Made by a program: the position numbers and the translations under genes | Shown here: positions 53,686-62,338 of the stretch, one piece after another | How positions within the stretch are numbered: the first letter of the stretch is position 1 | Layout: each line of letters starts with the position of its first letter | Source of the DNA: Saprospiraceae bacterium | GTDB taxonomy: Bacteria; Bacteroidota; Bacteroidia; Chitinophagales; Saprospiraceae | Reading direction: 5' to 3' | Length of the DNA stretch: 64,000 bases | Assembly (NCBI GenBank): GCA_027488855.1 | Contig: JAIYAV010000021.1 | Coordinates: 1-64,000, forward strand | The notes under the pieces: generated by a model | The model's database searches: none | What the model was told of the DNA's origin: nothing | The model's input: the letters and a program-made list of their open reading frames with translations, nothing else

Positions 53686-55155
53686 TTATTTCTCGCTCAA
53701 ACTCATCCGAATCTTCTTCTCCAGATCACTCACCGTCTCCTTGAAAAACGGATCCGTTTCCATCAAATCCTGCACGGTACGGCAAGAATAAATCACTGTA
53801 CTGTGATCCCGACCTCCAAACACTTCACCCAGCGCTTTCAACGAGCGGTCGGTCATGTTTTTGGCCAGGTACATGCTCAATTGGCGGGCAATCACGATGG
53901 AGCGTTTGCGGGTTTTGCCATTGAGGGTTTCTACGGGTACCTTGAAATATTCCGCAACGAGCTTTTGGATGAACTCGACGGTGATTTCTTTATTGATTTC
54001 GGTTACAAAATTCCGCACCACTTCTTTCGCCAAATCGATGTCGATTTCGCGGCGGTTGAGGGAGGATTGCGCGATCAAACTGATCAACACCCCTTCCAGT
54101 TCACGGATGTTGTTTTTGATGTTGTAACAGATGAATTCAGTAACATCCTGGGCGATTTCAACCCCCTCCATCATCATTTTGTGCTCCAGAATGGCGATGC
54201 GGGTTTCAAGATCGGGTGCCTGCAAATCGGCAGAAAGACCCCATTTGAAACGCGAAATCAAACGCTCCTCCATGTCCTGCAAGTCCTTGGGTGGACGGTC
54301 AGAAGTCAGGATGATTTGTTTGCCGTTTTGATGGAGCTGGTTAAAAATGTGGAAGAAAATATCCTGCGTCTTTTTCTTGCCCTCCAGAAACTGGATGTCA
54401 TCCACGATCAGCACATCGATGTGTTGGTAAAAAGTGACCACATCATTGATGGCGTTGTTTTTGATCCCCGCGATGATTTGATTGGTGAATTTTTCGGATG
54501 AAACGTAGAGTACCGTTTTTTTTTTTTTTTTTTCCAAAATCTCATTGCCGATCGCTTGAGCCAGGTGCGTTTTACCCAAACCCACATTGCCAAAAATGAC
54601 CAGCGGGTTAAAGGATGTTTGTCCGGGTTTGCGCGAAATGGCATACCCTGCCGAACGAGCCAGGCGGTTGCAATCTCCCTCGATGTAATTGTCGAAGCGA
54701 TAGTTGGGGTTCAATTGTGGGTCAACCTTCATCTTTTTAATCCCTGGAATCACAAAAGGATTTTTGATGGAGTCGGTATCCACATTATTGTAGTAGGGCA
54801 ATTGGTCAGAAAGAGACACATTGCCGTGGTGGCTGGAACTCGGTTTTTCAAAACCATTCCCATTTCCAGCGTAATGTTTACGTTTTTCTTCTTCGCGGGG
54901 GTCGTTTACCAAAATTTGGTATTCCAGGCGTGCTTTGTCGCCTAACTGACTACGGATGCTTGTTTTGAGCAGCGAAACATAATGTTCCTCTAACCATTCA
55001 TAGAAGTACTTATTGGGTACCTGAATGGTTAGTGCGTTTCCATCGAGCCGTACAGGCTTGATAGGCTCGAACCAAGTTCTGAATGCCTGCATGTTAACAT
55101 TGTTGCGAATGTTTTGCAGACAGCTCTCCCACACTGTAGCATGATCTTTAACCAT
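53686..55155 (-). CDS. dnaA: Chromosomal replication initiator DnaA
   Basis: 489 residues from ATG 55155. Domain I (about 1-85) begins VWESCLQNIRNNVNMQAFRTWFEPI; the AAA+ part holds Walker A GNVGLGKTH and Walker B VLIVDDIQFLEGK; domain IV carries the DnaA signature (ARQLSMYLAKNMTDRSLKALGEVFGGRDHSTVIYSC). It binds origin boxes and opens oriC. Odd feature: just after GNEILE a run of 18 A (54516-54533 on the plus strand as T) encodes five Lys, replacing the usual mixed residues before TVLYVSSEKF. The following sequence is in frame and normal. I see no clear cluster of DnaA boxes in either flank. Confidence 0.96.
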   Translation of the reverse strand: MVKDHATVWESCLQNIRNNVNMQAFRTWFEPIKPVRLDGNALTIQVPNKYFYEWLEEHYVSLLKTSIRSQLGDKARLEYQILVNDPREEEKRKHYAGNGNGFEKPSSSHHGNVSLSDQLPYYNNVDTDSIKNPFVIPGIKKMKVDPQLNPNYRFDNYIEGDCNRLARSAGYAISRKPGQTSFNPLVIFGNVGLGKTHLAQAIGNEILEKKKKKTVLYVSSEKFTNQIIAGIKNNAINDVVTFYQHIDVLIVDDIQFLEGKKKTQDIFFHIFNQLHQNGKQIILTSDRPPKDLQDMEERLISRFKWGLSADLQAPDLETRIAILEHKMMMEGVEIAQDVTEFICYNIKNNIRELEGVLISLIAQSSLNRREIDIDLAKEVVRNFVTEINKEITVEFIQKLVAEYFKVPVETLNGKTRKRSIVIARQLSMYLAKNMTDRSLKALGEVFGGRDHSTVIYSCRTVQDLMETDPFFKETVSDLEKKIRMSLSEK

Positions 55156-55514
55156 TCTCCAGAATCTTTCGCCAAAGGGCGTTGTGCAATAAATAGTCTC
55201 AATTTGTAAAAGAGAGCGTATCAGTAAGTTAGTAACAAAGATGAGTTTGTTCAAGCGCTTTAGTCTCGCAATTTGTACAAACCGTTCCTTCCATCAGAGG
55301 GATACAAAGATGAAAAAAAGAATCCGTTTTGGGAAATCCGTTCGTCGACTTTTTTCTAATCAGATGATCAAAAAAACTGGAACTGCCTGTAAACCCATGG
55401 AGTCTGGCCGAAATATTTTTTTTGGTTTTATATCCTGTCTTGTAATTTCAACACGCTGAATAATTGTTCTAAATTTTTTGTTGGCTACACTAGGTTTTCA
55501 TGCAATTTCTTGCA
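55156..55514. other. Gene-free stretch upstream of dnaA
   Basis: A 359-bp region between dnaA and the LacI gene. I see no exact TTATNCACA box cluster, no long palindrome and no exact TAnnTTTG box toward dnaA; two near matches (CATCTTTG on the minus strand, near 55232 and 55305) are the best promoter candidates. A short plus-strand open frame here (55241-55459) has no family features. Confidence 0.4.
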
Positions 55515-56585
55515 TTAATTTCCTTGCTCCCGCTGTACATAATATGCAGCATTTTCAGCCACGACGATGTCCAAAGGGAGATGTTGTACCCTGGGCATTT
55601 GTTTTTTAAAAATAAAATAATCTGTCAGGTTTTTGATGGCCAAGTACCCCTGGTAACTGGCATTCTGGTTGATTAAAAAATCGATTTTTCCCATTTGTAA
55701 AAAGTGCAGGTTGTTGGGTAAAAGATCGAAGCCCAGAATAGGCAAATGAGCTTGAGAAAGACCCTGAATCGCTTCTACCAGTTTATAAGCCCGAGAGTTG
55801 GTGACAAACACTGTTTGTATGTCAACGTATTGTTGAAGCAATGATTTCAGTAAGCTGTCCAAACGTTCTGGGTTGTCAAAATCTTCTACGTCCTGTCGCA
55901 GTACAGTGAAGGAATTTTCGTCTTTTTGCGCCAAAAAATGCCGCAAACCATGCTCTTTGTCCATGAGGTGTTTGGCATTCGTGGTTTCCTTATCGAGGTT
56001 GAGCAATAAAACCTTACCCGCTCCATTCATGGCCATACTGAGCAATTTGCCAGCCAGCACTCCACTCTGATACGAATCTTGTCCAATGTAAGACATCACC
56101 TGAGGGTGTTCAACGTCGGTGTTGACCAAAATGGTAGGAACTTCTACTTCAGCACAATGATCCAGAAGCTCCAGCGACTCCTTGAGAAAAATGGGCGGAA
56201 AAACCAGTGCATCCGGTTTTTGATCAATCAATGCGCGGGCACTTCTTTTAAAATCTTGTGGGCTAAACAAATCAAACATCTGCTCCACCAAGCCTACACC
56301 ATAATGTCTAACGGATTGCTGAGCGCGTCGCATCCCCAATAAGGGCAAATCCCAGTACGGATCGCTGTGTAGCTGGGGCATTAACACGCCAATTTGGATG
56401 GCCCGATTGAATGCCAAAGTACTGGCAATCAGATTAGGTTCAAAATCCAACGCCTGCATCACCTGTAGGACTTTTTCTTTTACTTCTGCCGATACCCTAC
56501 CGCGCTCATGAATCACCCGATCCACCGTTCCTACCGAAACGCCTGCTTGCTGCGCAATGTCTTTGATGGTGACTCTTTTATTCAT
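55515..56585 (-). CDS. LacI-family transcriptional regulator of the GlcNAc locus
   Basis: 356 residues: an N-terminal LacI helix-turn-helix (VTIKDIAQQAGVSVGTVDRVIHERGRVSAEVKEKV, about 4-39) with hinge region, then a periplasmic-binding-protein-like ligand domain (about 62-350). The recognition helix reads SVGTVDRVI, the Bacteroidota variant of SxxTVSRVL. Because it is divergent from a ROK kinase gene and the intergenic region contains palindromic sites, it probably represses (or activates) both itself and the GlcNAc genes; the ligand would be an amino sugar or its phosphate. This link is inferred from gene order. Confidence 0.88.
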   Translation of the reverse strand: MNKRVTIKDIAQQAGVSVGTVDRVIHERGRVSAEVKEKVLQVMQALDFEPNLIASTLAFNRAIQIGVLMPQLHSDPYWDLPLLGMRRAQQSVRHYGVGLVEQMFDLFSPQDFKRSARALIDQKPDALVFPPIFLKESLELLDHCAEVEVPTILVNTDVEHPQVMSYIGQDSYQSGVLAGKLLSMAMNGAGKVLLLNLDKETTNAKHLMDKEHGLRHFLAQKDENSFTVLRQDVEDFDNPERLDSLLKSLLQQYVDIQTVFVTNSRAYKLVEAIQGLSQAHLPILGFDLLPNNLHFLQMGKIDFLINQNASYQGYLAIKNLTDYFIFKKQMPRVQHLPLDIVVAENAAYYVQREQGN

Positions 56586-56624
56586 TGTAAAGATGAAAAA
56601 TTAAATACAGAATAAAATTTTAGG

Positions 56625-56702
56625 GTGTACGCACACGCAAAGGTAGAAATAAAGTATGTGTGCACAAATGCTAAATTTTTTCTTGTGTGTGCGCACACAC
56701 AA
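56625..56702. promoter_or_regulatory. Three palindromic operator-like sites
   Basis: Site 1 GTGTACGCACAC (56625-56636), site 2 TGTGTGCACA (56657-56666) and site 3, a perfect 20-bp palindrome TTGTGTGTGCGCACACACAA (56683-56702), share the half-site TGTGnGC/GCnCACA, the size and symmetry used by LacI-family proteins. Site 1 lies at the start of the LacI transcript, site 2 touches its -33 box, and site 3 covers the -33 region of the kinase promoter. Confidence 0.7.
56638..56668 (-). promoter_or_regulatory. Full promoter for the LacI-family gene
   Basis: On the minus strand: TTTG (56668-56665), 19 bp, TACCTTTG (56645-56638), an exact TTTG-N19-TAnnTTTG match. The operator-like sites 1 and 2 overlap its start site and spacer, which suggests autoregulation. 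Confidence 0.75.
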
Positions 56703-56716
56703 TTTAAAAAAATATC

Positions 56717-56724
56717 TACCTTTG
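56717..56724 (+). promoter_or_regulatory. Promoter -7 box for the ROK kinase gene
   Basis: TACCTTTG matches TAnnTTTG exactly. Instead of a -33 TTTG, the upstream position is taken by the perfect palindrome (56683-56702), so this promoter may need or be blocked by the regulator. The predicted transcript starts near 56730, which rules out an apparent in-frame start at 56625. Confidence 0.65.
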
Positions 56725-56744
56725 CCACAAGTGAGGTAAATAGG

Positions 56745-57788
56745 ATGAAAGCGCTTATTTTCGCTGCGCGTGTTGCATCAAAGTTTGGTCACACGTTGAA
56801 GAAACTTCATCAAATAAGCTATCGTCAAGTGAAAAATAAGGCAGTCATTGGAATTGACATCGGTGGAACGGGCACCAAACTGGCCATCATCGATGAAAGT
56901 GGACAAATCCTGGAACGCAGCAGTTATGATACCCAATCACGAAAAGGTGCAGCACCTTTTATAGCAGGATTGACCGAGGCGGTGAATGAACTGCGCAATC
57001 GGGTTGCTGCTTCAAATGAAATCATTGGGATTGGAATTGGGACTCCTGCGTGTAATGAAATGGAAGGAACCATTACCGGAGCAGCCAATATGCCATTTCC
57101 TGATACCGAAACGGTTCCGGTACGCCAATTGGTGGCAGAACGCTGTGGATTGCCTACCCGCTTGGCCAACGATGCCAACGTGGCCGCCTTGGGTGAAGGG
57201 CAGTTTGGAGGTGCCCGGGAAATGAAAAACTATATCCTGATTACTTTGGGTACAGGTGTAGGCTCAGGGGTGATTGTGGATGGGAAAATCGTCATTGGGC
57301 AACATGGACTGGCCAGTGAGTTTGGACATACCTTTGTGGTACGCGATGGGCGCAGTTGTGGCTGTGGCCAAAAAGGGTGCATTGAAACTTATGCATCCGC
57401 CACGGGCATTAAGCGAACTGTTTTTGAGTTGATGAGCACCTATACCCAGGACAGTCCGTTGCGGAATTTCAGCTTTCATCAACTGAGTGCTCGGGACATT
57501 ACCCAGGCTGCCAAGGCTGGAGACTTTTTGGCTCAAGAAGCTTTTCGTTTAACTGGAGAAATCCTGGGCTATAAAATTGCCGACCTGATGGTTTTATTTG
57601 ACCCTAAGGCCGTTTTTTTAGCGGGTGGTTTGGCCCTGGCGGGGTCTCTGATTTTGGATCCTGCGCGTGAAAGTTTGGAAAAGCATACGATGCCCATGTT
57701 CAAAGGCAAATGTGAAATAAGATTGTCTCAACTGGGAAGTGAAGACGCCGCGCTATTGGGGGCTGCTTCCCTGATTTATCGTTCCTAG
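56745..57788 (+). CDS. ROK-family sugar kinase, probable N-acetylglucosamine kinase
   Basis: 347 residues from ATG 56745. Phosphate loop AVIGIDIGGTGTKLAI (about 33-48), catalytic-region NDANVAALGEGQFGG and the intact zinc motif CGCGQKGCIETYAS. About 30 residues precede the phosphate loop (MKALIFAARVASKFGHTLKK..), longer than usual; a GTG at 56829 would give the standard length. It would make GlcNAc-6-P (or glucose-6-P) in the cytoplasm. Its place before the NagB/PIG-L fusion and a hexosaminidase favours GlcNAc. Compare the zinc-less ROK at 9389-10300. Confidence 0.88.
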   Translation: MKALIFAARVASKFGHTLKKLHQISYRQVKNKAVIGIDIGGTGTKLAIIDESGQILERSSYDTQSRKGAAPFIAGLTEAVNELRNRVAASNEIIGIGIGTPACNEMEGTITGAANMPFPDTETVPVRQLVAERCGLPTRLANDANVAALGEGQFGGAREMKNYILITLGTGVGSGVIVDGKIVIGQHGLASEFGHTFVVRDGRSCGCGQKGCIETYASATGIKRTVFELMSTYTQDSPLRNFSFHQLSARDITQAAKAGDFLAQEAFRLTGEILGYKIADLMVLFDPKAVFLAGGLALAGSLILDPARESLEKHTMPMFKGKCEIRLSQLGSEDAALLGAASLIYRS

Positions 57789-57856
57789 GTTCCAGTATTC
57801 CAAAGTTCTCCAAGGTTCAGCAATCCTTGGAACTTTGAAACACTAGAACCCAGGAA
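57781..57856. repeat. Palindromic spacer between kinase and deaminase genes
   Basis: Nested arms: GTTCCTAGGTTCCAGT (57781-57796) with ACTAGAACCCAGGAAC (57841-57856), and CCAAAGTTCTCCAAGG with CCTTGGAACTTTG around a 9-nt loop. Both are near-perfect. It separates two genes that should be cotranscribed, so it may be an mRNA processing or attenuation site rather than a full terminator. Confidence 0.6.
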
Positions 57857-57881
57857 CCCTTGAATACTAAAAACGTTCCAC

Positions 57882-59801
57882 ATGGACTTTCTAAAATACC
57901 AACTCAAGTCGGTAGAAAAAATTCCGACCAAAGTTTGGGCAGATGCCCGCGAAGGCTCAAAGCACGTAGCCCAAACCATCGCTTTAGCCATTCGTCAACG
58001 GCAACAAGAAGGCGAACACATCGTATTGGGCCTGGCCACCGGTTCCTCTCCGATCCAGGTGTACCAGGAATTGGTGCGCATGCACAAAGAAGAAGGTCTG
58101 AGTTTCAAAAACGTGATCACCTTCAACCTGGATGAGTACTTTCCCATGAAACCCGACGCACAACAAAGTTATGTGCGTTTCATGCGGGAATACCTCTTCG
58201 ACCATGTGGACATCAAGAAGGAAAACATCAACATTCCCGATGGCACCATCCCCATGGAACAAGCCGACGAATACTGCCGCCAGTACGATAAAAAAATTGA
58301 ACTCCTGGGAGGGATTGACATTCAGCTGTTGGGCATTGGCCGCACCGGGCACATTGGTTTTAATGAACCAGGTTCCTGGGACACCTCCGATACCCGCCTC
58401 GTACGTCTGGATGCTCTCACCCGCAGAGACGCGCTTAAAGATTTCCCCAGTGAAGAGGATGTGCCCTATCGCGCACTGACCATGGGGATTCGCTCCATCA
58501 TGAAGGCGAAAGCGATCCACCTGCTGGCTTGGGGCCAACACAAGGCTGATGTGCTCAAAAGAGCCGTAGAAGAGGAAATTACCCCCTCCATTCCTGCTTC
58601 CTTTTTGCAAAAACACCCCGGCACTCGGTTCCATTTGGACACTGGCGCGGCCGAGGCCCTGACCAAATATGAATCTCCCTGGTTGGTAGGCATGTGCAAC
58701 TGGGATGACGATTTGATCTGTAAAGCAGTCGTTTGGCTCTCTCAGAAGGTAGGTAAACCCATCCTCAAACTCACCAGCGAAGATTACAACGAGCACGGGT
58801 TGAGTGACCTGACCCTAGAATACGCAGCAGCCTACGAAATCAACATCAAAATATTCAACCGCCTGCAACACACCATTACAGGCTGGCCCGGCGGTAAACC
58901 CAATGCAGACGATTCAACCCGTCCTGAGCGGGCCAAACCTGCCAAAAAACGGGTTATCATCTTCAGCCCTCACCCGGATGACGACGTGATTTCGATGGGT
59001 GGAACTTTCCTGCGTTTGGTGGAGCAAGGACACGAGGTGCATGTCGCTTACCAAACTTCGGGTAACATTGCCGTACACGACTACGATGCCCTGCGCTTTG
59101 TAGAATTCCTGCAAGAATACAATGAGTCTGGGGCCAACAATGGGGCGCAAGAAGAACTGAGCAAAAAGTACAAAAAAGTCCTCAAGTTTTTGCACGATAA
59201 GAAGTCCGACGAAGTGGACATTGCCGAGGTGCGCAGTGTGAAAGGTTTGATCCGTCGGGGTGAAGCCCGCGCGGGAGCCCGTTTTTGCGGACTGGACGAA
59301 AAGCACATCCATTTCCTGGATATGCCTTTTTATGAAACTGGGCGTACCCGTAAAAACCCAGTGGGTGAAGAAGATGTCAAAATCATTGCTGATTTGATCG
59401 AAAAAATAAAGCCGCATCAGGTTTACGCTGCGGGTGATTTGGCTGATCCACATGGCACGCACCGCGTTTGTCTGGACGCCATCTTTATGGCTTTTGAAAA
59501 ATTGAAGGAAGAATCCTGGATGAAGGATTGCTGGTTGTGGCTCTACCGGGGTGCCTGGCACGAGTGGTCAACGCACGAGATTGAAATGGCGGTGCCGATT
59601 AGTCCTGAGCAATTGTTGAAAAAACGGCGGGCCATCTTTATGCACCAGTCGCAAAAAGACCGGCCACCGTTCCCTGGCAACGACGAACGGGAATTCTGGC
59701 AACGCGCCGAAGACCGCAACCGCGATACCGCACACATTTACCGTCAACTAGGTTTGGCGGAATATGAAGCGATTGAGGCTTTCCGGCGCTGGAAGTTTTA
59801 A
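57882..59801 (+). CDS. nagB: Glucosamine-6-phosphate deaminase fused to a PIG-L/LmbE deacetylase domain
   Basis: 639 residues in two domains. The N-terminal NagB domain (about 1-330) has LATGSSPIQVY, NLDEYFPM and GIGRTGHIGFNEPGS. In Escherichia coli NagB the last motif has Asp before Gly-His; here it is Thr155, while His157 and Glu162 are kept. The C-terminal PIG-L domain (about 357-639) has the zinc motif SPHPDDD (His364) and DPHGTHR (His524, His527), typical of N-deacetylases of GlcNAc-containing molecules. The fusion suggests one polypeptide that removes the acetyl group and then deaminates, giving fructose-6-P. No separate nagA is in the window. The coupled reaction is an inference. Confidence 0.9.
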   Translation: MDFLKYQLKSVEKIPTKVWADAREGSKHVAQTIALAIRQRQQEGEHIVLGLATGSSPIQVYQELVRMHKEEGLSFKNVITFNLDEYFPMKPDAQQSYVRFMREYLFDHVDIKKENINIPDGTIPMEQADEYCRQYDKKIELLGGIDIQLLGIGRTGHIGFNEPGSWDTSDTRLVRLDALTRRDALKDFPSEEDVPYRALTMGIRSIMKAKAIHLLAWGQHKADVLKRAVEEEITPSIPASFLQKHPGTRFHLDTGAAEALTKYESPWLVGMCNWDDDLICKAVVWLSQKVGKPILKLTSEDYNEHGLSDLTLEYAAAYEINIKIFNRLQHTITGWPGGKPNADDSTRPERAKPAKKRVIIFSPHPDDDVISMGGTFLRLVEQGHEVHVAYQTSGNIAVHDYDALRFVEFLQEYNESGANNGAQEELSKKYKKVLKFLHDKKSDEVDIAEVRSVKGLIRRGEARAGARFCGLDEKHIHFLDMPFYETGRTRKNPVGEEDVKIIADLIEKIKPHQVYAAGDLADPHGTHRVCLDAIFMAFEKLKEESWMKDCWLWLYRGAWHEWSTHEIEMAVPISPEQLLKKRRAIFMHQSQKDRPPFPGNDEREFWQRAEDRNRDTAHIYRQLGLAEYEAIEAFRRWKF

Positions 59802-59803
59802 TG

Positions 59804-59898
59804 ATTTCGGGTGTGGGATTTCGGATTTCGGCTGGTGTGAGGCCCTAAAATATTGGAGACCTATCACCAGCCGAAATCCGAAATCCCACATCCGAAAT
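59804..59898. repeat. Palindromic repeat, copy 1, before the GH20 gene
   Basis: Arms 59804-59837 and 59865-59898 (34 bp, one mismatch) contain GGGATTTCGGATTTCGGCTGG and its complement. The same arm sequence recurs on the other side of the GH20 gene (62196-62329), so the gene is bracketed by two copies. Confidence 0.75.
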
Positions 59899-59915
59899 AA
59901 CCAAAATCAGATTGC

Positions 59916-62189
59916 ATGAAACACCTTCTTGTTTACTTATCGTTATTTTTGAGCGTTATTACCAACGCCCAATCCCCTACCCTTCCCATTATTCCCATCC
60001 CACAAAAAATCACCCCCAAGGCTGGCCAATTCGAGTTGAATGCTCAAACGACCCTACGTTTTGACCTCAACAATGAACAAATTGCCTTAGCCAGCAACTA
60101 CTTCAATCAATGGTTGAGTAAGTATGCGGGTTATAGCTTGTCAACTGGTAAGCAGGACAAAAACAACATCGTACTGGAATTGACTCCAGGCGTCAGTCAA
60201 GCCGAAGGTTATCGCTTGCAAATCAGTGGCGATCAGATCAAAATTCAAGCCTGGCAACCCGCCGGATTGTTTTATGGCATCCAAACCCTGATCCAGCTTT
60301 TCCCGATCCAAGCCGCCGCAAGTACCAAACTCGCCGCTGTCGACATCGAAGACCACCCAGCTTTTGCTTATCGGGGGGCCATGTTGGACGTTGGGCGTTA
60401 TTTTTTCCCGGTTGAACAAGTCAAGGCGTTCATCGATATGTTGGCCCGATACAAAATCAACCGCTTTCACTGGCACCTGACCGAAGACCAGGGCTGGCGC
60501 ATTGAAATCAAAAAATACCCCAAACTGCAGGAAGTAGCCGCCTGGCGTAAGGAGACTGTCGCTGGACACCTCAGCAGTGCCAGCCGCAAATTTGATGGCC
60601 AAAAACACGGCGGCTATTACACCCAAGAGGAAGTCAAAGACATTGTGGAGTACGCCCGCAAACGTTTCATTACGGTCATTCCCGAAATTGAAATGCCAGG
60701 GCATGCTCAGGCGGCCATTGCAGCTTATCCTGAATTGGGTTGCCTCGATACAAAGCTGGAAGTGGGCACGCTATGGGGCGTATCCAAAAATGTGTTTTGC
60801 CCCAACGAAGCCACCTTTACCTTTCTGGAAAATGTACTCAGCGAGGTGATGGCCCTTTTCCCCAGCCCCTACATCCACATTGGCGGTGATGAATGCCCCA
60901 AAGACCAGTGGAAAACCAATGCCACGGCACAGGCCATCATCAAACGCGAAAAGCTGAAGGATGAACACGAGTTGCAAAGCTACTTCATCCGGCGCATGGA
61001 AAAATTTGTGAACCAACATGGCCGACAAATCATCGGCTGGGATGAAATATTGGAGGGAGGCCTGGCACCCAACGCCACGGTGATGTCTTGGCGCGGTACC
61101 GAAGGCGGCATTGAAGCAGCCAAACAAGGGCACGATGTCATCATGACGCCCACCTCCTACTGTTATCTCGACTACTACCAATCTTTACACGCCGATGAAC
61201 CACTGGCCATCGGCGGCTTTTTGCCCCTGGAAAAAGTATACAGCTACAATCCCATTCCTGCTGAGTTGAATGCAGAGCAAGCGAAATACATCCTGGGCGC
61301 ACAAGCCAACCTTTGGACCGAATACATCAGCACTGAATCCAAATTGCAGTACATGTTTTCGCCCCGCGCCCAAGCCCTAGCCGAAACGACCTGGTCGGGT
61401 GAAAGCCGCAAGAACTTCCCCGATTTTGTGCAACGCCTGGCAGTACACATGCAGCGTTGGAAAAAAGAGGGCTACAATTTTGGCAATCACTTGTACGATG
61501 TAAAGGCTATGGCGAAAGTGGAAGGTAATGGCGTCAAATTTGATGCCTCCAATCCAGCCAAGCAAGGCAGTATTCGCTACAGCAACAATGGCAGCAACCC
61601 TACGGCAAGTAGCCCAGTAGTGGATGCCAATCAGGCCATTGCTCAAAGCGGAAAATACCTGTTCCAAACCTTTCAAGATGGACAAGCGGTGGGTCGTTCA
61701 GCCAACCTGGAATTGAGTTTCCACAAGGCTGCGGGCAAAAAAATCACTTTGAACTCAGAACCAGCCAAACAATACAGCGCGGGTGGTCCGGGCGCCATCA
61801 TCAATGGGGTGATCGGCAGTGACCAGCGTTTCAACGACTCAGAATGGTTGGGTTTTTCCGGTAAAGACTTCAGTGCGGTAATCGACCTGGGGAAAGCCAA
61901 CAGCCTCAAACAACTCAAGCTTCGTTTTTTCAACAATCCAGGCCAATGGGTCTACGCGCCCAAGGACGTAAAGGTCAGCTGGAGCAACGACGGCGCCAAT
62001 TTCGGCAAAAGCCAAAGCAGTGTGGTCAATGCAGGCAAGGACAACGTTGTTCCGCTCAATTTGGCGCTGAAAAATGCGAAGGGGCGTTACCTGAAGTTGG
62101 AGGTCAGTAACTACGGGGTGATTCCGGCGGGAGCGCCCGGAGCGGGCAGCAAAGCCTGGTTGTTTGTGGATGAAATTGTCATAGAATAA
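59916..62189 (+). CDS. Secreted beta-N-acetylhexosaminidase (GH20)
   Basis: 757 residues: signal peptide ending TNAQ, a GH20b N-terminal domain (about 20-140), the GH20 barrel (about 148-490) with catalytic pair Asp325-Glu326 in HIGGDECPKDQW, then a chitobiase C-terminal module (about 530-600, IRYSNNGSNPTASSPVV) and an F5/8-type beta-sandwich (about 615-755, GFSGKDFSAVIDLG). It releases terminal GlcNAc (or GalNAc) from chitin fragments or glycans. Outer-membrane or periplasmic. The GlcNAc would enter the kinase/deacetylase/deaminase path upstream. Confidence 0.95.
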   Translation: MKHLLVYLSLFLSVITNAQSPTLPIIPIPQKITPKAGQFELNAQTTLRFDLNNEQIALASNYFNQWLSKYAGYSLSTGKQDKNNIVLELTPGVSQAEGYRLQISGDQIKIQAWQPAGLFYGIQTLIQLFPIQAAASTKLAAVDIEDHPAFAYRGAMLDVGRYFFPVEQVKAFIDMLARYKINRFHWHLTEDQGWRIEIKKYPKLQEVAAWRKETVAGHLSSASRKFDGQKHGGYYTQEEVKDIVEYARKRFITVIPEIEMPGHAQAAIAAYPELGCLDTKLEVGTLWGVSKNVFCPNEATFTFLENVLSEVMALFPSPYIHIGGDECPKDQWKTNATAQAIIKREKLKDEHELQSYFIRRMEKFVNQHGRQIIGWDEILEGGLAPNATVMSWRGTEGGIEAAKQGHDVIMTPTSYCYLDYYQSLHADEPLAIGGFLPLEKVYSYNPIPAELNAEQAKYILGAQANLWTEYISTESKLQYMFSPRAQALAETTWSGESRKNFPDFVQRLAVHMQRWKKEGYNFGNHLYDVKAMAKVEGNGVKFDASNPAKQGSIRYSNNGSNPTASSPVVDANQAIAQSGKYLFQTFQDGQAVGRSANLELSFHKAAGKKITLNSEPAKQYSAGGPGAIINGVIGSDQRFNDSEWLGFSGKDFSAVIDLGKANSLKQLKLRFFNNPGQWVYAPKDVKVSWSNDGANFGKSQSSVVNAGKDNVVPLNLALKNAKGRYLKLEVSNYGVIPAGAPGAGSKAWLFVDEIVIE

Positions 62190-62195
62190 TTGCAG

Positions 62196-62329
62196 ATTGG
62201 GGATTTCAGATTTCGGCGGGTAGCTTGCTTCTGATCTATTGGTTTTCCAGGCATGAAAAACAGCCCTGACATAACCGAAACTACCGAAGGCAGCGCTCCA
62301 GCCGAAATCCGAAATCCCAATTCCGAAAT
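62196..62329. repeat. Palindromic repeat, copy 2, after the GH20 gene
   Basis: Arms near 62196-62220 and 62298-62329 carry the GGGATTTC(A/G)GATTTCGGC motif of copy 1, but the inner loop is different and longer (about 77 nt). It ends 10 bp before the next small gene. Confidence 0.7.
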
Positions 62330-62338
62330 GATACATCA

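Follow-up and report, generated by a model that had tools for sequence, protein, structure and literature searches.

Genes at the Locus

The window analyzed here is a stretch of 64,000 nucleotides (positions 1 to 64,000 of contig JAIYAV010000021.1) from a Saprospiraceae bacterium (assembly GCA_027488855.1), and it carries a gene set predicted to serve the utilization of N-acetylglucosamine (GlcNAc), in which a glucosamine-6-phosphate (GlcN-6-P) deaminase domain, NagB, is fused to a PIG-L/LmbE de-N-acetylase domain (Table 1). An earlier note on this DNA had read the gene order as a LacI regulator, a ROK kinase, the NagB–PIG-L fusion and a GH20 hexosaminidase, and had proposed that the fused PIG-L domain takes the place of the GlcNAc-6-phosphate (GlcNAc-6-P) deacetylase NagA. 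The open reading frames (ORFs) and their Pfam domains agree with that order. The limits drawn for the locus in the note enclose the kinase, the fusion and the GH20 gene, but the LacI gene, which is divergent from the sugar genes, ends just before the left limit at 56586.

The kinase is listed as an ORF opening at GTG 56625, a start that is probably too early because operator-like DNA sits within the first codons of that ORF; GTG 56829 and ATG 56745 are candidate starts. The kinase contains a cysteine-rich stretch, CGCGQKGC, which we take to be its zinc site. The GH20 enzyme is probably exported, judging by eye from its signal-peptide-like N-terminus. The LacI gene adjoins an ORF on the reverse strand (53686-55254) that, from its sequence, presumably encodes a dnaA-like replication initiator.

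Table 1. Positions and strands of the features in the window, followed by two examples of the longer fusion found in other loci.
Feature	Position	Strand	Remarks
LacI-family regulator	55515-56585	-	Pfam LacI and Peripla_BP_4; divergent from sugar genes
Putative LacI operator, perfect palindrome TGTGTGCGCACACA	56686-56699		14 bp, CG-centered
ROK-family sugar kinase	56829-57788	+	Pfam ROK, E 3e-66
NagB–PIG-L fusion, 639 aa	57882-59801	+	NF002557/PRK02122, 1063.2 bits
NagB domain, residues 15-262	57924-58667	+	TIGR00502; D84, H157, E162 kept
Middle/linker segment, residues 263-340	58668-58901	+	Conserved; GWPGGK motif
PIG-L/LmbE de-N-acetylase domain, residues 341-639	58902-59798	+	Pfam PIG-L; H364, D366, D367, H524, H527
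Large inverted repeat between fusion and GH20 gene	59796-59906		47-nt arms, 87% complementary
GH20 beta-N-acetylhexosaminidase, 757 aa	59916-62189	+	Pfam GH20, E 2.4e-125; C-terminal F5/8-type domain
Second long inverted repeat, after GH20 gene	62186-62332		Shares GATTTCGGATTTCGG with the 59796-59906 repeat
Longer fusion, locus L188	8901-11273	-	Second NagB–PIG-L family
Longer fusion, locus L189	11270-13621	-	Second NagB–PIG-L family

Domains, Conserved Residues, and Fold of the Fusion Protein

Over its full length, the fusion belongs to an annotated subfamily called “glucosamine-6-phosphate deaminase-like protein” (NF002557/PRK02122; 1063.2 bits against a cut-off of 384, with residues 7-639 covered), and its architecture is therefore already present in the databases. 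Pfam places Glucosamine_iso at residues 21-245 and PIG-L at residues 360-535; the latter, at 64.9 against a cut-off of 28.2, makes the C-terminal half a member of the PIG-L/LmbE family, and the score of the fusion in the NagB family model TIGR00502 is borderline, equaling the cut-off of 236.9 bits. There is no match of the fusion to the NagA model (TIGR00221); the protein may be NagA-like in action, yet it is not NagA by family.

An alignment of 153 family members, to which loci L018-L047 had been added and from which L122, L125, and L127 were excluded because they hold no complete fusion ORF, comprises 133 distinct sequences after removal of 20 duplicates. The deaminase residues D84, H157, and E162, which we take to be the catalytic Asp, His, and Glu with roles as in Escherichia coli NagB, are kept in 131, 130, and 132 of the 133, respectively. 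The zinc residues that the earlier note had listed for the PIG-L half are present as claimed: H364, D366, D367, H524, and H527, presumably the zinc ligands, the base and the oxyanion His, are jointly intact in 127 of the 133 distinct members. Between the two domains, the motif G334-W335-P336-G337-G338-K339 is found in all 131 distinct rows that have residues at those columns, and the fusion exceeds the family cut-off in 157 of 395 genomes (see below); a chance read-through is therefore excluded as its origin. Conservation of the PIG-L half is no lower than that of the NagB half, the median identity to the window protein among the distinct rows being 64% for the former and 59% for the latter.

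The AlphaFold model of the window protein has a predicted local distance difference test score (pLDDT) of 87.7 and a predicted template modeling score (pTM) of 0.81, and a further model has a pLDDT of 85.3; both are of good quality. The top Foldseek match of the NagB half is a NagB structure (2bkv, 1.7e-24), and that of the PIG-L half is a diacetylchitobiose deacetylase (7.8e-9). With VIA-align, the PIG-L half reaches Z scores of 16.6-20.6 against 22 entries of this fold, well above the 9.1 of the next row.

Distribution of the Fusion and NagA in Bacteroidota

The sample surveyed comprised 395 Bacteroidota genomes, of which 157 carry the fusion over the NF002557 cut-off, 61 carry NagA over the TIGR00221 cut-off, and 37 carry both. 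For the 120 fusion genomes in which NagA did not exceed this cut-off, a second search used a profile, A1, built from 20 diverse NagA sequences, with up to 24 candidates scored per genome in 80 of them and up to 40 in the remaining 40. A substantial homologue of NagA, at 261-378 bits, turned up in six of the 120. The remaining matches at E 1e-12 were short and stayed below 51 bits, and all eight positive controls scored above 430 bits. With TIGR00221 and A1 taken together, no recognizable NagA is present in 114 of the 157 fusion genomes, 15 of these 114 being single-contig assemblies; the expectation of the earlier note that genomes with the fusion would be found without NagA is borne out to this extent across the phylum.

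A contrast appears only among genomes in which NagB is present. Thirty genomes carry NagB over the TIGR00502 cut-off without the fusion described above (hereafter the short fusion), and 14 of these carry a longer fusion of the same two domains, which is described below. NagA occurs in 15 of the 16 NagB genomes that have neither fusion, the exception being G148, as opposed to 49 or 50 of the 171 genomes that have either type. According to the treatment of G224 and G219, Fisher tests yield p values between about 4e-7 and 3e-6, but related genomes were treated as independent and the significance is therefore overstated. G224, whose NagA-like protein has 452 aa and scores 206 bits, was counted both ways; G219, which has NagB and no NagA and lies below the fusion cut-off, was kept out of the 16 and would make the figure 15 of 17 if taken as a NagB-only genome. 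This phyletic pattern suggests that the fusion does the job of NagA in most of the sampled carriers.

Relatives of the fusion also occur in metagenome-assembled genomes (MAGs) labeled Phycisphaeraceae, Phycisphaerae, and Planctomycetia (L110, L119, and L122), which may represent either lateral transfer or mis-binned contigs. In a Flavobacteriales MAG (L102), a separate NagB-like gene lies directly upstream of the fusion.

Gene Neighborhoods and MurQ

The comparison of gene order across Bacteroidota, which the earlier note had called for, shows that the fusion recurs in chitin loci and in muropeptide-recycling loci. It covered 125 loci (40 NagA-less fusion loci, 80 named loci, and 5 NagA-bearing ones), and neighbors were named from the proteins of the window or from a Pfam scan of one representative of each family, SusC and SusD being assigned by resemblance only. 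The neighbors include LacI (24 loci), an SSF symporter (17), GH20 (15), AnmK (14, 9 of them adjacent), ROK (13), and an AmpG-like permease (5), as well as SusC/SusD-like clusters. An acetyltransferase-like membrane protein of the HGSNAT family is found near the fusion in 14 loci, in 12 of them within two genes (L186, L091-L093, L108, L150, L167).

In the chitin setting, SusC/D-like genes, the fusion, GH20, and GH18 stand in a row, for example in the NagA-less single-contig genome G206; GH18 is likewise present in G174. In the muropeptide setting, the NagA-less genome G130 has the order AnmK–GH3–AmpG–GHL10–fusion with DeoR–MurQ divergent from it, all families being verified. The same order is found in G234, where the stretch ends within AnmK; in G134, two extra genes lie between AnmK and the GH3-like gene; and in G304, a SusC-like gene intervenes and the stretch stops before AnmK. 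L178, L182, L226, and L227 are compact muropeptide-recycling loci of this kind (AnmK, GH3, AmpG, GHL10, fusion, DeoR, and MurQ), although no single stretch need show the complete set.

MurQ yields GlcNAc-6-P. A MurQ homologue (E 1e-60 or better) is present in 277 of the 395 genomes, 155 of the 157 that carry the fusion being among them, and of 80 NagA-less fusion genomes tested, 77 have MurQ over its cut-off, G091 and G130 fall just under it, and G210 is without it. In six NagA-less genomes (G049, G186, G134, G130, G234, and G304), MurQ lies one gene away from the fusion. The chitin and muropeptide-recycling loci, together with the proximity of MurQ, fit GlcNAc-6-P as the candidate substrate.

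A Longer NagB–PIG-L Fusion

The longer fusion, of about 785 aa, is 28% identical to the window protein and does not reach the NF002557 cut-off (the member in L189 scores 198 bits). Besides the two loci listed in Table 1, it is found in L220, L221, L223, and L228. All 14 distinct sequences keep the residues that match H364, D366, D367, and H527, and at the position of E162 they have Val, Ile, or Thr. Provided that E162 is the counterpart of the Glu that is catalytic in E. coli NagB, the longer fusion would be a deacetylase whose deaminase half has decayed; of the 20 genomes that have it, 14 carry a separate NagB over the cut-off. Within the 30 NagB genomes, the longer fusion is found in 8 of the 9 without NagA over the cut-off versus 6 of the 21 with it (p 0.004), or in 7 of 8 versus 7 of 22 (p 0.012) if the 206-bit protein of G224 is counted as NagA. 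Among the 17 genomes for which both positions are given, 8 have the longer fusion within 5 kb of MurQ, and MurQ immediately adjoins it in G236 and G132.

Proposed Function and Its Alternatives

We consider it probable, on the grounds of domain content, conserved residues, the top Foldseek match of the PIG-L half, gene context, and phyletic distribution, that the short fusion is a bifunctional GlcNAc-6-P deacetylase/GlcN-6-P deaminase contained in one protein, which genomes lacking NagA would require and which would be redundant in the source genome. In the proposed scheme, GlcNAc set free by GH20 outside the cytoplasm would be phosphorylated by the ROK kinase, with LacI controlling the gene set, and the C-terminal PIG-L domain, a zinc de-N-acetylase unrelated to the amidohydrolase NagA, would take the acetate off GlcNAc-6-P; the N-terminal NagB domain would then convert GlcN-6-P to fructose-6-phosphate and ammonia. 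The substrate, the order of the two reactions, and their coupling are what the scheme adds to the residues, fold, gene context, and distribution described above. The fusion would stand in for the absent NagA in most of the fusion-bearing Bacteroidota sampled, serving chitin-derived GlcNAc as well as the GlcNAc-6-P that arises from MurQ during cell-wall recycling. A broader proposal, for and against which about equally much can be said, is that much of the phylum has undergone a widespread non-orthologous replacement of NagA by NagB-fused PIG-L domains of two subfamilies, the longer of which, its deaminase decayed, would be a phosphosugar-binding deacetylase working with MurQ in cell-wall recycling.

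A number of observations weigh against these proposals, and the first concerns the source genome. The earlier note had stated that NagA is absent, which is correct for the window and for its contig (C85), on which no NagA match was found; however, a search of the whole genome identified one NagA over the cut-off on contig C371 (390 aa; TIGR00221 345.5 bits, cut-off 225.65). An active NagA elsewhere in the genome was what the note had named as refuting its idea, and such a gene is present and complete, its activity being predicted. Replacement is therefore not needed in the source genome, the argument from absence fails there, and the fusion as a necessary substitute is ruled out for this organism; the replacement idea itself retains the 114 NagA-less fusion genomes. 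In the source genome, the PIG-L domain may be redundant, or the separate NagA may serve another pool. No other ORF in the 19-kb stretch around the C371 gene matches the kinase, regulator, fusion, or GH20 protein of the window, and the ORFs of this stretch give no sign that NagA there is part of a second GlcNAc locus. Because a protein resembling galactosamine-6-phosphate isomerase (296.9 bits against a cut-off of 271) is encoded in the genome, it is tempting to speculate that the C371 NagA serves another amino sugar.

Other counter-evidence lies in the distribution. NagA is uncommon in the sample as a whole (61/395), and genomes with the fusion do not have it less often (37/157) than the others do (24/238); a simple anti-correlation over the 395 genomes is thus absent, and the contrast is confined to NagB genomes. 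In G339 and G068 (L138 and L139), an intact fusion has NagA as its immediate neighbor, both genes being read from one strand, and replacement is therefore not a universal rule; small NagB-like genes stand beside some other NagA genes, all of them below the NagB cut-offs. Furthermore, 98 of the 122 MurQ-positive genomes without the short fusion have no NagA over the cut-off, and 45 of the 59 tested among these 98 (e.g., G029, G041, G045, and G053) have neither the longer fusion nor a NagA detectable by profile. A strict rule that MurQ implies NagA or a fusion is accordingly false, MurQ alone demands neither, and another fate of GlcNAc-6-P must exist in those genomes. The fold of the PIG-L half indicates its class, not its substrate or reaction, because VIA-align ties BshB (Z 20.6), diacetylchitobiose deacetylase (19.3), and the hydratase GalB (19.2).

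These facts would suit an explanation in which the substrate of the PIG-L domain is a different N-acylated sugar, such as a cell-wall fragment, another aminosugar phosphate, or a thiol conjugate, and NagA-less genomes process GlcNAc-6-P otherwise or not at all: the fold supports varied reactions, GalB included, the 45 MurQ genomes imply that another route exists or that none is needed, and the genes for NagA and the fusion adjoin each other in two genomes. On the other hand, the recurrent neighbors of the fusion indicate GlcNAc and muropeptides, and a bacillithiol role is disfavored, since the source genome has a separate BshB1 (277.6 bits in TIGR04001), whereas the fusion reaches only 30.3 bits against a cut-off of 182.5. 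We regard this explanation as unlikely.

The zinc site is also not invariant. One of its residues is altered in 5 of the 133 distinct short fusions (a sixth ends at a contig edge), one of the genomes concerned, G146 (L187), which has H524N and no NagA, contains no other fusion match, and the longer fusion has Glu in the H524 column. Altered sites of this kind, and an annotation that reads only “glucosamine-6-phosphate deaminase-like,” would agree with the PIG-L domain being a non-catalytic or regulatory attachment to what is simply a GlcN-6-P deaminase. This is very improbable given that nearly all distinct members keep the full zinc-site set and that the longer fusion, in every distinct sequence, has kept the counterparts of H364, D366, D367, and H527 while losing the deaminase glutamate.

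A further alternative follows from the archaeal diacetylchitobiose deacetylases (Pyrococcus structures; TK1764), which by sequence and Foldseek are the nearest solved relatives of the PIG-L half, although the sequence similarity to the profile is confined to about 51 residues. In the archaeal manner, the domain could remove the acetyl group from free GlcNAc, or from a short chito-oligosaccharide, ahead of phosphorylation, and the kinase would then supply GlcN-6-P; a chitinolytic pathway listed for Thermococcus kodakarensis includes such a deacetylase and a GlcN-6-P deaminase (PMC6579819), and in the window the genes for the kinase and GH20 adjoin the fusion. There, however, deacetylase and deaminase are separate proteins, and the former is named for diacetylchitobiose. 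Moreover, MurQ, whose product is already phosphorylated, lies near both fusion types, and a kinase step between deacetylation and deamination would lessen the use of a fusion for coupling. Deacetylation ahead of the kinase thus appears distinctly improbable, and deacetylation of GlcNAc-6-P by the fusion is preferred.

The chitin locus of Flavobacterium johnsoniae contains nagB (Fjoh_4557) and a GH20 gene (Fjoh_4556), and, according to the published account, deletion of this nagB did not impair growth on chitin, for which the authors suggest redundancy, noting three further nagB-like genes; expression of its product in E. coli failed, and the authors ascribed deacetylation to the NagA Fjoh_3974 (PMC5127042). 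The gene order around Fjoh_4557 resembles that around the fusion in L168-L171 and L230, and Fjoh_4557 may itself encode a fusion. The growth result weighs against the proposed function.

Putative Regulatory DNA and Intergenic Repeats

CG-centered 14-bp palindromes (with at most one mismatch) comparable to TGTGTGCGCACACA occur in 19 of the 22 loci in which a divergent LacI gene lies upstream of the fusion, 17 of them being of the same GTGT type, and are lacking in the other three (L050, L072, and L080). Base shuffling (200 shuffles) gave a mean of 1.6 and a maximum of 6; this excess therefore supports control of the sugar unit by LacI through a putative operator. The two long inverted repeats that flank the GH20 gene resemble terminators or hairpin elements repeated between genes, and the motif that they share, GATTTCGGATTTCGG, has 6 matches in the window (at most two mismatches) versus 0.29 expected.

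Relation to Known Systems and Significance

The proposed net reaction, from GlcNAc-6-P to fructose-6-phosphate, is that of the canonical pair NagA and NagB, and the NagB half is homologous to the canonical deaminase. By contrast, the canonical deacetylase is the amidohydrolase NagA, whereas the enzyme proposed here is a PIG-L/LmbE zinc enzyme fused to NagB. NF002557/PRK02122 describes the same full-length architecture, but its name covers the deaminase only and refers neither to a second activity nor to a link with missing NagA. In the open-licence literature, covered mostly as titles and the beginnings of abstracts, we found no report of the fused domain as a deacetylase or as a NagA substitute.

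Models of the use of chitin and mucin sugars and of cell-wall recycling assume NagA. If the proposed function is correct, metabolic reconstructions that score NagA as missing would be wrong for these Bacteroidota genomes, and a large annotated family would gain a function. A coupled deacetylase-deaminase would, in addition, become open to study and to use in chitin conversion.

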